The notes below the pieces were generated by a model that saw only the letters and a program-made list of their open reading frames with translations, had not been told where the DNA came from and searched no databases. From NCBI GenBank assembly GCA_028709955.1, contig JAQUTD010000007.1, positions 1 through 36,430 of the forward strand: a stretch of 36,430 bases of DNA. The letters are read 5' to 3'. The DNA is from Bacteroidales bacterium. Lineage in GTDB: Bacteria > Bacteroidota > Bacteroidia > Bacteroidales > P3. The translations under genes and the position numbers were made by a program. How positions within the stretch are numbered: the stretch's first letter is position 1; the number at the start of each line of letters is the position of its first letter. Shown one piece after another: positions 1,557 to 23,976 of the stretch.

Positions 1557-3452
1557 TTACTCATTTACACTAAGTATTCCATCGTTTAAAACAATGATTT
1601 CGTCATCTAAGAGCTTACGAATGATTGGTACTACAACTTCTTTTGAGCCATAAGTTAAGTTATTTGCAAAGTAATGTAGAGGTTGGGGCGAGTTTAATAA
1701 TTCTTGATATATTTTATCTGCAAGAGATTCTTTATTTTCTGTTTGCTTTTTTGATATACAAACATCACATTTATTGCATTTTTCTGATTCGATATTGAAA
1801 TATTTTAAAAGCTGTCGCTCTCTGCACTCATGTGATTGAACATATCTAATTAGCTCTTCTGCCTTTTGTTTGTTGGTTTCTTTTATTTCGTAATATTTTT
1901 CTTGTGAGAGTTCAAATGTATCATTGGACAATCTATTTTGAGTGAATATAATCTGAGGTTGAATTGATTTTGGATCGTAAAAAAGAATAGTATATTTTTC
2001 TAACTTTTTTAGCGATTTATATATATTTGCTTCTGTATCATAACATATTTTAGCAAGTTTTTTTTCATCAATCTGTGTGAACTCTGTCATTATTCCGCTA
2101 TAATTCCTCCTAAGTGCTTCAAGTAGAGGAAAATATTGGGGATACTCTAACATAAATTGGTATAGGGGCTCTCTCTCTGTATGTATAAATATCTTTGACA
2201 ATGGATTCCTGTTTTCTACCAATTCAATTAAACCTGAGTTTTGAAGAGTTCTCATAGAAGAAAATACTAAATATGGGTCTAAATTATAGGACTGAGAGAA
2301 TGTTATGATATCAAAATCAAATCTTAAGTCTTGTCCTGTTCCTGATGCTATTTTATAGTAGTTTCCTAAGGCGTTATATATGTTTTGAATATATTTCTTT
2401 TCAGGAAAGTTTGATTCGATTGTTTTTCTTAAAGAAGCAATGTCCTTTAAATTATAGAGTAAAATTCCATAGGCTTTCATCCCATTCCTTCCTGCCCTTC
2501 CAACTTCTTGAACGTAAGCTTCAATGCTTTCTGGAAGGTCATAATGTATAACATAGCTAACATTATTTTTATCAATTCCCATTCCAAAAGCTGTTGTTGC
2601 AACAATAATATCAATTTCGTCATCTTGCCATTGTTTTTGGTGATATCTTCTAATTGCCAAAGTTAATCCAGCATGATATGGAGTTGCTTTTATTCCTATG
2701 GATTGTAACTTTTGAGACAACTCTATAGTTTTTTTCCTTGACCTTACATAAATTAATCCTGAGCCTCCAACATTTTCAGTAATTGCTTTTATTCTTGCTA
2801 TCTTATCATTTTCCTCAAAAACAGTGTAAGAAAGATTTTTTCTTTGAAAGCTTGAGGTTAAGATATTTATTTCTTTAAAAAGTAGTTTTTCTTGAATATC
2901 ATCCACCACTTCTTGTGTTGCAGTTGCGGTAAGTGCAAGAATGGGAGCTTGTGGGTGGTATTGTCTAAGATTTGCTATATTAAGGAAAGATGGTCTAAAG
3001 TCATATCCCCATTTTGAAATACAATGAGCCTCGTCCACTGCAATAAGATTAACTTTCATCTTTTCAAAATAGGAAATAAATAATTTAGAACTTACTCTTT
3101 CGGGGGAAATATATAATATTTTCACCTTGCCATATATACAGTTATTTAAGGCAATTTCAATTTCTTGATTGCTTTGCCCAGAATATATTGCTCTAACTTT
3201 AATCCCTTTTGATTTTAATGATTTTTCTTGATCTATCATTAGGGCTATAAGAGGAGAAACAACAATACAAATTCCTGGCCTGCAAAGAGCTGGCAATTGA
3301 TAGCAAAGTGATTTTCCTGCTCCAGTTGGTAATAATGCAAGGGTATCTTTATTAGATAAAACTGAGGATATTATAGCTTCTTGATTATATCTGAAACTAT
3401 CGTATCCCCAGTATTTTTTTAGGATTTCGTATATTTTTTCTTTGTTAGCCAT
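1557..3452 (-). CDS. recQ: RecQ family ATP-dependent DNA helicase
   Basis: LLPTGAGKSLCYQLPA Walker A, DEAH box, GMGIDKNNVSYVIHYDLP, QEVGRAGRNG, RQC cysteines CRERQLLKYF...CNKCDVC; no obvious HRDC domain. Confidence 0.92.
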   Translation of the reverse strand: MANKEKIYEILKKYWGYDSFRYNQEAIISSVLSNKDTLALLPTGAGKSLCYQLPALCRPGICIVVSPLIALMIDQEKSLKSKGIKVRAIYSGQSNQEIEIALNNCIYGKVKILYISPERVSSKLFISYFEKMKVNLIAVDEAHCISKWGYDFRPSFLNIANLRQYHPQAPILALTATATQEVVDDIQEKLLFKEINILTSSFQRKNLSYTVFEENDKIARIKAITENVGGSGLIYVRSRKKTIELSQKLQSIGIKATPYHAGLTLAIRRYHQKQWQDDEIDIIVATTAFGMGIDKNNVSYVIHYDLPESIEAYVQEVGRAGRNGMKAYGILLYNLKDIASLRKTIESNFPEKKYIQNIYNALGNYYKIASGTGQDLRFDFDIITFSQSYNLDPYLVFSSMRTLQNSGLIELVENRNPLSKIFIHTEREPLYQFMLEYPQYFPLLEALRRNYSGIMTEFTQIDEKKLAKICYDTEANIYKSLKKLEKYTILFYDPKSIQPQIIFTQNRLSNDTFELSQEKYYEIKETNKQKAEELIRYVQSHECRERQLLKYFNIESEKCNKCDVCISKKQTENKESLADKIYQELLNSPQPLHYFANNLTYGSKEVVVPIIRKLLDDEIIVLNDGILSVNE

Positions 3453-11663: not shown

Positions 11664-13079
11664 TTTCTTTGTTTGAGAGTATTTACCACTTCTTATGTTT
11701 ATAAAATAAGTACCTTTCTTAAATTTAGAAACATCAACACTTAATTCCAATTTATTCCCAATTGGTTTTTCTACCAAACTTAAGACTTCCTTGCCTTGAA
11801 TATCAATAATTAATATTTTAATCTCTGTTCCAACTCCTTCAAGACTAATTATAGTTTTCTCATTGGTTGGATTAGGATACAAGATTAAATTAGTTCCATC
11901 ATATAGTATATTAGTTGGTAAGGTGAGGATAAAAGTTTTTAAAGAATAGTTATAAATATTTGTGTCATAAGACCAAGTACTCTCATTAGAAGGTTCATAA
12001 TTATTTGCATTAATATAATGAGTAAGCATATGATTGTAGTTATCAAGATAGCTCTGAGTATAATTTAATGGAGATGGTTTAAATTTTAATATCTCATCAG
12101 AGGTATAATTATAATCAAAGTTATAAATAAATTTATGATTACACAACAAATCTACGCCCCATTGAACATAAGCTTTTACAAGAACTTTATTATCATAATT
12201 ATCATAGAAAAAAGAATCAATACTATGGAGATTCCAATTATTATTATACATATAATTATATCTTGACAACATCAAATCATTTGAATTGTAGGATAATTCC
12301 ATCTTATATGAAGGCAACCAGGTTGAACCATTATAAATACTGTAATTTTCAAACAATTGTTCTGTTAACAAATTACTACTATCATATATAAAATAGGTTT
12401 TCGATCCATTAACTAAGGCAGAAGTATCGTTAAATTGTTCATATAATGAATAAATCATATTATCATTTTGATCGTAAGTATTGGATATCTGACTTTCTAT
12501 ATGTTCATTACCGTAATTGTCAAAGTAGTAGGAATTTTCGTTAATTAATAAATTATCTGTGTTATAAACAAAATCTCTTTTAGAAGACATAATCCAAGCA
12601 TTTGAATCTGTGTTGAAGAAATAATCAATCTGCCTTGTTTTATACCCATTGGTATATTCATAATTTCTTCTATAATTTGTTAGCCAAATATTGTCAATAT
12701 TTACAGTCATAACCTCTTGAACTAATAGACGGTTATTATCATAAGTAAATTCCATAAACTCATGTTCTCTATATTGGTTTGAATCATAATCCCAAATATA
12801 ATAAAGAGAACTTATCAACAGACTATCAACATTATAGGCATTCTCGGTCTTAGAAAACACATCTTTAATTAGAGTGAGATTACCTCTCAGATCATATTCA
12901 AAAATAGTGGGTTCATTTGGTGCCAAACAATAAGTAATACTGTCCAAAGCCATAAGGTCAATAGTGGTTTTGGAACCAGAGGGAGATTTCGATTCCCTAT
13001 TCTCAATATAATTTTGAGAAAACGTATCTTGCATCCCAAATAATAAGAAACACAAAATAAAAAAATAATACTTTTTCAT
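11649..13079 (-). CDS. Secreted Tyr/Asn-rich repeat protein with T9SS type A sorting domain
   Basis: Signal peptide MKKYYFFILCFLLFGMQDTFSQ; C-terminal LYPNPTNEKTIISLEGVGTEIKILIIDIQGKEV...FKKGTYFINIRSGKYSQTKKLIVN. Confidence 0.85.
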   Translation of the reverse strand: MKKYYFFILCFLLFGMQDTFSQNYIENRESKSPSGSKTTIDLMALDSITYCLAPNEPTIFEYDLRGNLTLIKDVFSKTENAYNVDSLLISSLYYIWDYDSNQYREHEFMEFTYDNNRLLVQEVMTVNIDNIWLTNYRRNYEYTNGYKTRQIDYFFNTDSNAWIMSSKRDFVYNTDNLLINENSYYFDNYGNEHIESQISNTYDQNDNMIYSLYEQFNDTSALVNGSKTYFIYDSSNLLTEQLFENYSIYNGSTWLPSYKMELSYNSNDLMLSRYNYMYNNNWNLHSIDSFFYDNYDNKVLVKAYVQWGVDLLCNHKFIYNFDYNYTSDEILKFKPSPLNYTQSYLDNYNHMLTHYINANNYEPSNESTWSYDTNIYNYSLKTFILTLPTNILYDGTNLILYPNPTNEKTIISLEGVGTEIKILIIDIQGKEVLSLVEKPIGNKLELSVDVSKFKKGTYFINIRSGKYSQTKKLIVN

Positions 13080-21743: not shown

Positions 21744-22499
21744 TTAGAAAGATTTAATTATGGCTAAGAAATCTTCTGCTTTCAAAGAAGCTCCACCTAT
21801 CAATCCTCCATCAACATCCTTATTTGCGAACAATTCTTTTGCATTTTTAGCATTACAACTACCTCCATAAAGTATAGAAATTTCTTCTGCTACTTCATTC
21901 CCATACTTTTTATCTAATAAAGAACGAATAAAGGCGTGCATTTCTTGCGCTTGAAGACTTGTCGCCGTTTTTCCAGTTCCTATAGCCCAAACTGGTTCAT
22001 AAGCAATAACAACATTTAATATTTCCTGACTTGTTAAATTAAAAAGGCTTTCCTCAAGTTGTTTTTGCACAACATCAAAATGTTTTCCAGATTCTCTCTC
22101 TTCCAAAACCTCACCAAGACAGAATATTGGCTTAATATCATCTTTCAATAGTTTTGTAATTTTTGTTGCAATCTCTTGATTAGTTTCATTAAAGTATTTC
22201 CTTCTTTCACTATGTCCAACGATGCAATAATCAACGTTCATTGAAGCCAACATTTTTGAAGAAACCTCTCCAGTATATGCGCCATTATCAAAAGAGGCAA
22301 CATTTTGAGCCCCTGCAAAGAAGTTTGACTCCTGTGCTAAATCTGAAGTTAATTCAAGGTAAGGAAAAGGTGGACAAATAACGACATCCGCATTTAATTC
22401 AACAGAGTCTAATTTTTCAGCAATATCGTTTACCAAATCATCTGCTAATTCGAAACTTAAGTTCATCTTCCAGTTTCCAGCAACTATATTTCTTCTCAT
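21744..22499 (-). CDS. tpiA: Triosephosphate isomerase
   Basis: AGNWKMN, YCIVGHSERRKYFNETN, VIAYEPVWAIGTGKTA, ISILYGGSCNAKNAKEL, GGLIGGASLKAEDF. Confidence 0.97.
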   Translation of the reverse strand: MRRNIVAGNWKMNLSFELADDLVNDIAEKLDSVELNADVVICPPFPYLELTSDLAQESNFFAGAQNVASFDNGAYTGEVSSKMLASMNVDYCIVGHSERRKYFNETNQEIATKITKLLKDDIKPIFCLGEVLEERESGKHFDVVQKQLEESLFNLTSQEILNVVIAYEPVWAIGTGKTATSLQAQEMHAFIRSLLDKKYGNEVAEEISILYGGSCNAKNAKELFANKDVDGGLIGGASLKAEDFLAIIKSF

Positions 22500-22543
22500 A
22501 ATTTTATTGTATTAATTTGTTAATTTAATGTAGTAATTAATTG

Positions 22544-22573
22544 CAAATATACACGAAATTTATGAAAAGCCAA
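22544..22573 (-). promoter_or_regulatory. Candidate tpiA promoter (TTG-N19-TATATTTG)
   Basis: + strand CAAATATA (22544-22551) and CAA (22571-22573), 19-nt spacing, 45 bp upstream of the tpiA ATG. Confidence 0.5.
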
Positions 22574-22807
22574 TTCTATATAGAGCTAAAAAGGATAGGG
22601 AAAAGAAATATGTATTCTTAAATTTTTAATTTTATTTCAATATGTCAATCGATATAACCATTTAGAAACATCTTTTTAATATAAAATTCAATCCGTTTAA
22701 TCCATAAAGTCGTGATTTTAGTTTATATTAAATAAGAAAAAGGATTACAATAAACAATTTTTAATCAAAACTCATGTTAAATTAATTTAATCCTAATCTA
22801 TTTTCAT

Positions 22808-22866
22808 TATGTTGCCAACATAACGTCACTATGTTGCCAACATATCACTCATATGTTGGCAACATA
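22808..22866. repeat. Array of three 15-bp palindromes TATGTTG(C/G)CAACATA at exact 22-bp period
   Basis: 22808-22822, 22830-22844 (centre C) and 22852-22866 (centre G), separated by 7-bp spacers acgtcac and tcactca. Confidence 0.9.
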
Positions 22867-22899
22867 CAAAGATTAAATAAGGGAAAAATATAAAAAAAT

Positions 22900-23976
22900 T
22901 TATTTACCTATCCTTACTCTTGGATCTAAAACACCATAAAGGATATCAACAACAATGTTGATTATAACTAAAAGAACACAAATTATTAGAAGCGCCCCCA
23001 TAACAACTGGAAAATCGTATTTTTCTAAGCCGTCAACAATAACAACTCCCACTCCCTTCCAGTCAAAAATATATTCCACAAAAACTGCTCCAGCCAAAAG
23101 AGAAGCAAACCATCCTGAAACTGAAGTTAAAACCGGGTTCATGGCATTTTTAAGAGCATGACGACGAAGTATTTGAAATCTGGAGAGACCTTTTGATTTT
23201 GCAGTACGAATATAGTCTTGAGAAAGGACGTCTAATAGAGCACTCTTGGTAAGTTCGGAGATTACGGCAAGAGGTCTTATGCCTAAGGTGAATGCGGGAA
23301 GAATTATATTCTTAAGGTCAAGGTTTTCACCCCGTCCAAAATCATCAACAGAAAATAGGCTACCAAACATACTCAGTCCTGTGTAGGGAGCAAGGACGTA
23401 TGCGAAGAGCCATGCAAAAATGATGGCTGCAAAAAATGATGGCAAAGACATTCCAAGAACAATTACACTAAGATTTATCCTATCAAACCAACTATCCTTA
23501 AAAATTGCTGAAAGACTGCCCAAGCTTACACCCACAACAAAGGCAAAGAGCATACTGACTAATGCTAATATAATTGTGTTTGGAAAGGCTTCAGAAAGAA
23601 TATCAGTTACTTGACGTTTGGATTGGTAACTTCTTCTTAAGTAGGGCTTCTTTAAAACTACAACGTTCTCTTCTGAGGAGTAGATTTTATTGTAAGAATA
23701 CTTAGTTTTGTCTAAGTATCTTGATTCTTCTTTCGAAGTTTTATGAAAGGAAATGGGGGACAAATCGTTTAGGTAGTAGAGGAATTGAATTCCAAGAGAT
23801 TTGTCAAGTCCCAAGTCTTTATTAATTATCTCAACGCTTTGCTGATCTGCTCTTTGACCTAACATCATTCTGGCAGGATCGCCAGGAAGTACATTAAACA
23901 AAAAGAATACCAGAGTTACAACCCCAAGCAAAACTAAAAAACCATAACCTATTCTTCTTAATATAAAGTCTAACAT
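22900..23976 (-). CDS. ABC transporter permease (DppB/OppB type)
   Basis: RRIGYGFLVLLGVVTLVFFLFNVLPGDPARMMLG; RTAKSKGLSRFQILRRHALKNAMNPVLT EAA loop; DILYGVLDPRVRIG C-terminus. Confidence 0.92.
   Translation of the reverse strand: MLDFILRRIGYGFLVLLGVVTLVFFLFNVLPGDPARMMLGQRADQQSVEIINKDLGLDKSLGIQFLYYLNDLSPISFHKTSKEESRYLDKTKYSYNKIYSSEENVVVLKKPYLRRSYQSKRQVTDILSEAFPNTIILALVSMLFAFVVGVSLGSLSAIFKDSWFDRINLSVIVLGMSLPSFFAAIIFAWLFAYVLAPYTGLSMFGSLFSVDDFGRGENLDLKNIILPAFTLGIRPLAVISELTKSALLDVLSQDYIRTAKSKGLSRFQILRRHALKNAMNPVLTSVSGWFASLLAGAVFVEYIFDWKGVGVVIVDGLEKYDFPVVMGALLIICVLLVIINIVVDILYGVLDPRVRIGK

Follow-up and report, generated by a model that had tools for sequence, protein, structure and literature searches.

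The window analysed here is a 36,430-nucleotide stretch of the genome of a Bacteroidales bacterium (contig JAQUTD010000007.1, assembly GCA_028709955.1). Within it, a 400-bp gap (22500-22899) separates the triosephosphate isomerase gene tpiA from a DppB-like ABC permease gene, both on the minus strand. This gap contains three perfect copies of the 15-bp palindrome TATGTTGSCAACATA, TATGTTG-S-CAACATA, repeated at exact 22-bp steps. The array continues on both sides into symmetric AT-rich flanks that keep the 22-bp phase, as deduced from the consensus over the arrays of this genome.

Table 1. Features of the palindrome array and its neighbouring genes.
Position	Strand	Feature	Evidence
21744..22499	-	triosephosphate isomerase gene (tpiA); start 309 bp from the array	PF00121, E 4e-95
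22786..22807	.	left AT-rich 22-bp flank unit (TTTAATCCTAATCTATTTTCAT), inverted counterpart of the right flank	symmetric flank consensus over the genome's arrays
22808..22822	.	palindrome unit 1, TATGTTG-C-CAACATA	sequence
22823..22829	.	7-bp variable spacer ACGTCAC	sequence; spacers not conserved between orthologous arrays
22830..22844	.	palindrome unit 2, TATGTTG-C-CAACATA	sequence
22845..22851	.	7-bp variable spacer TCACTCA	sequence; spacers not conserved between orthologous arrays
22852..22866	.	palindrome unit 3, TATGTTG-G-CAACATA	sequence
22867..22895	.	right edge CAAAGAT plus AT-rich 22-bp flank unit TAAATAAGGGAAAAATATAAAA	symmetric flank consensus over the genome's arrays
22900..23976	-	DppB-like ABC permease gene; stop 34 bp from the array	PF00528

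Phased palindrome arrays in the genome and its relatives

The first-pass annotation had described a triple palindrome on a strict 22-bp period with no other copy in the window, and this observation was correct. The only other match in the window was one with 3 mismatches at position 12259. In order to evaluate whether the array could arise by chance, we computed a three-unit phased-palindrome score, which reached 35 of 35 at this site, while the best scores over periods 17-30 in 60 dinucleotide shuffles of the window averaged 23.5 with a maximum of 26.5. The annotation had also proposed that many unphased single copies scattered through the genome, or a lack of phasing in sister species, would argue against it. 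Neither was the case. The whole genome (G000) holds 18 exact copies and all 18 lie in eight intergenic arrays with the same 22-bp phase, located on contigs C15, C28, C57, C78, C118 (the window), C138, C146 and C155. The only lone copy with at most 1 mismatch was found at C43:10872. The neighbours are ordinary genes, namely RNase P RNA, a tRNA and a transglycosylase gene, hisS, bcp, purM/aroA, a Fic gene and tpiA, in convergent, tandem and other orientations.

Arrays of the TATGTTG type with 3-5 units were also present in the sister species G003 (6 arrays), G004 (10) and G005 (6) and, in another genus, in G184, while a collection of named organisms added the MAG Md513_bin13. Some of them occupied orthologous loci: G003_C44, G004_C31 and G005_C115 corresponded to each other, G000_C15 and G004_C20 were both located upstream of RNase P RNA, and four loci were shared by G004 and G005. 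Apart from these orthologous loci, no neighbouring genes were shared between species. At shared loci (G003_C44 with G004_C31, and G000_C15 with G004_C20), the palindrome arms were about 93-95% identical whereas the 7-bp spacers fell to about 30%. In one G004/G005 pair (G004:C37 and G005:C48), three units had switched from TATGTTG to TCCATTG on both arms while two spacers stayed identical, so here the palindromes changed faster than the spacers. The palindromes are therefore under selection as such, and their sequence can change concertedly. Array orientation with respect to the flanking genes was unconstrained (convergent, tandem or divergent), although arrays in the genus of the window were often placed between convergent genes and those of G205 and G184 mostly between divergent genes.

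The same architecture was found with other palindromes. The reversed-pattern control of one search exposed G205, a relative that carries 11 arrays of GCAAAACSGTTTTGC with 7-bp spacers, again at 22 bp. Two of its contigs, C4 and C7, share identical stretches of at least 10 kb that include an array, which reflects either a duplication or a redundant assembly (contamination estimate 9%). In the arrays of G205 and G003, minor half-sites (GCAAGAC; TATCTTG) recurred at the same positions, suggesting that position within the array matters. We then built a de novo scorer of phased palindromes, which separated known arrays (38-47.5 of 49; one masked by N) from the background in a 295-kb sample of the motif-negative genome G001 (at most 32.5, apart from one 21-bp tandem repeat scoring 38). 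This sample gave no 22-bp array; contig C7 of G001, a genome without TGSCA arrays, carries a 21-bp AT-rich tandem repeat (CGTTTTAATAAATTATTTCTT). The scorer also recovered further palindrome classes as bycatch. Over all the sequences retrieved, 72 of 79 strong arrays had a period of 22, 6 of 21 and 1 of 23, with no other period between 15 and 40. A pattern for TGSCA-centred arrays alone counted 18-163 hits in nine genomes of the genus and none in G001 and G007, with controls of 0-2.

Linkage of the arrays to HU-HIG genes

Inspection of the genes next to the arrays revealed members of HU-HIG (PF18291/TIGR01201), a Bacteroidales-expanded HU-like DNA-binding family, directly beside arrays in G000, G184 and G205 and, by coordinates, in G203. 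In G000, the array on C155 ends 40 bp upstream of an HU-HIG gene (C155:3415), although an N gap in the assembly (3225-3324 of this locus) covers part of it and hides its true number of units. In G184, G205 and G203, the HU-HIG genes were preceded by arrays with their own palindromes, one of the 11 G205 arrays among them. The protein encoded at C155 (140 aa) is a full-length family member, with 97 bits against a cut-off of 26.2 for PF18291, and is predicted by AlphaFold with high confidence (pLDDT 91.9) as an HU fold with an additional N-terminal beta-hairpin. The nearest solved structures found by Foldseek were 4fmr, a Bacteroides vulgatus putative DNA-binding protein, and HU/IHF.

To determine whether the linkage was general, we used HU-HIG as the query. 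All 22 genomes tested from the same family of species carried it, with 4-50 copies each. Among 66 HU-HIG genes of this family, phased arrays were detected upstream in 36 and downstream in 1, counting odd and even palindromes and periods 18-30, nearly all of them 21-23. When only odd palindromes were counted, there were 18 upstream at period 22 and 0 downstream. The remaining 30 genes showed no clear upstream array. In contrast, none of the control loci had arrays (0 of 24 canonical HU loci and 0 of 19 ParB loci). Upstream of or near HU-HIG genes, three loci also showed 22-bp tandem units with an even palindrome, GATGTACATC, a second architecture beside the 15+7 one. The palindromes differed between paralogues, for example CCCAAAGWCTTTGGG, CCTAACTTAGTTAGG, ATAAGTCAGACTTAT, TATAATGSCATTATA and AAACATGSCATGTTT, and half-site similarity followed protein similarity (Mantel r = 0.34, p = 5e-5, 23 genes), a correlation that could also arise by joint descent of a gene and its upstream DNA. 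In the relative G010, three palindrome classes each included one array upstream of an HU-HIG gene plus dispersed ones.

The association was weaker in other Bacteroidales families, where arrays occurred about equally upstream (4 of 25) and downstream (5 of 25). However, annotated HU family genes of Bacteroides finegoldii (WP_007747515), Parabacteroides distasonis (WP_008779936) and Phocaeicola massiliensis did show upstream 22-bp inverted-repeat arrays, of CAC-N4-GTG type, while an HU family gene of Prevotella nigrescens (NZ_CP082843.1), located between a D-Ala-D-Ala carboxypeptidase gene and a 'smalltalk protein' gene, lacked a clear upstream array. The weak point of the linkage is found in G003, G004 and G005, where TATGTTG arrays exist but no HU-HIG gene with such an array was found. 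In these species, the nearest homologues of the C155 protein carry AAACATG or TATCATG arrays, or none, and no HU-HIG gene lies within about 5 kb of the TATGTTG arrays.

A putative binding array for an HU-HIG paralogue

Altogether, we consider it probable, with fair confidence, that the array is a cooperative DNA-binding array for one paralogue of the HU-HIG family, the likely paralogue being the one encoded at C155. In this view, one dimer would bind each 15-bp palindrome through its two 7-bp half-sites, and three to five dimers placed two helical turns apart would line up on one face of the DNA and spread weakly into the phased AT-rich flanks. Each paralogue appears to have its own palindrome, with one array in its own upstream region, which would give autoregulation, and further copies (seven in this genome, the window array among them) dispersed at intergenic sites. 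The latter most likely nucleate local nucleoprotein structures that organise the chromosome or affect neighbouring transcription. The architecture, phasing, conservation and dispersal of the arrays and their linkage to HU-HIG genes come directly from the computations, whereas binding by HU-HIG, dimer stoichiometry, autoregulation and the purpose of the dispersed copies are inferred. A point against this reading is that HU proteins are classically non-specific binders.

The interpretation given in the first-pass annotation was thus partly supported. Its proposal of a cooperative dimeric regulator bound on one face of the helix is supported by the period of 22 bp, fixed across species and palindrome sequences, and by the DNA-binding family linked to the arrays. 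Its alternative, a terminator or processing element, is not supported. The annotation, which was made from the window alone, could not see that the array is one of a family, that it extends into phased flanks or that it is tied to a protein family.

More speculatively, and with somewhat less than even likelihood, HU-HIG proteins could be a large, fast-diversifying set of sequence-specific chromatin proteins in Bacteroidales, in which each paralogue has a private 22-bp-phased palindrome code, an autoregulatory array and up to dozens of dispersed chromosomal arrays, giving one bacterium several parallel, mutually insulated nucleoid-marking systems. HU-family proteins are treated as largely non-specific architectural proteins, and no known sites for the HU-HIG paralogues were found in the papers searched. 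A readable site next to many of the genes gives each paralogue a predicted target and makes specificity, autoregulation and chromosome-wide role testable at once, and because related arrays also precede HU genes in Bacteroides and Parabacteroides, this can be addressed in cultured gut bacteria. Close species whose orthologous arrays switched palindrome, such as G004 and G005, would also show how a DNA-binding specificity and its sites change together.

ALTERNATIVES. Other explanations and comparison with known systems

The best surviving rival, although unlikely, is that an unrelated sequence-specific regulator binds the arrays and that HU-HIG genes are only frequent targets of such regulators. 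The three species with TATGTTG arrays but without an HU-HIG gene next to any of them, together with the lack of a functional theme among the genes flanking dispersed arrays, would fit this possibility. However, one regulator cannot explain a different palindrome at each HU-HIG paralogue, and HU-HIG is the only DNA-binding family found repeatedly beside arrays in different genomic contexts. An Lrp/AsnC octamer was also considered before the HU-HIG linkage appeared, and the resemblance of the half-site (TATGTT) to Xer/dif was dropped since other species use unrelated half-sites in the same architecture.

It is less likely that the arrays are remnants or copies of a mobile repeat (REP/BIME, MITE or BrickBuilt-like minisatellite) with no host role. 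They are indeed multicopy, intergenic, palindromic and lineage-specific, their flanks are inverted, and REP and BrickBuilt elements look superficially alike (PMC8266576, PMC4596501). Nevertheless, Y1/RAYT transposases were absent from G003, G005, G184 and G205, no phage match was found at the DNA level and no array was found in viral contigs. In addition, fully diverged spacers with retained palindromes and arrays at shared loci in different species are the pattern of selection, not of recent transposition.

A function as RNA, with hairpins acting as terminator, processing or stability elements, is also improbable. The minus-strand RNA across the window site folds strongly (z = -6.5), but any set of palindromes would do so. 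No terminator-like site, that is, a GC-rich stem followed by a T run, was found in 22000-23500 (0 sites) and the window had no Rfam match. Many units in sister species mix two half-sites and so break the hairpin (e.g. TACCTTGCCAACATA; seen in G004/G005), arrays also lie between divergent genes, where no transcript need cross them, and hairpins do not need a fixed 22-bp period. Finally, centromere-like parS sites of a ParB/KorB-type protein are very unlikely, since, although one G004 array lies about 2.4 kb from parB, nearly all genomes have a single standard chromosomal ParB (G004 has one further distant hit), most have parS-like TTTCACGTGAAA sites, and array-bearing and array-free genomes do not differ in ParB.

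With respect to known systems, the closest is the HU-HIG branch of the HU/IHF superfamily, to which the linked protein belongs. HU is known as non-specific and IHF for one asymmetric site, whereas in the papers searched we found no mention of PF18291, TIGR01201 or a paralogue-specific, 22-bp-phased palindrome array for such proteins, although an earlier mention, for instance in the likely key paper on the family (Burroughs et al. 2017), cannot be excluded. Operator arrays are already known; what differs is that these would serve an HU-family protein, with paralogue-specific codes. REP/BIME elements with RAYT (TnpA_REP) are likewise intergenic, palindromic and lineage-specific, with several per genome (PMC8266576), but most array-bearing genomes lack RAYT, and the arrays have a strict 22-bp period, a few dozen copies at most and a link to HU-HIG genes. 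The BrickBuilt minisatellite/MITE of Porphyromonas gingivalis is a Bacteroidales intergenic element with about 20 copies per genome, and the same study mentions undescribed 22-nt tandem repeats in strain W83 (PMC4596501). It consists, however, of 23-nt direct repeats without spacers, with IS5-type terminal inverted repeats and a conserved leader and tail, and not of a palindrome plus variable spacer. parS/ParB, KorB and phage-type multiple operators share several palindromic sites for a dimer and cooperative binding, some with centre S as in KorB operators, but ParB was not supported as a partner and the arrays described here combine a fixed 22-bp period with many paralogous specificities.
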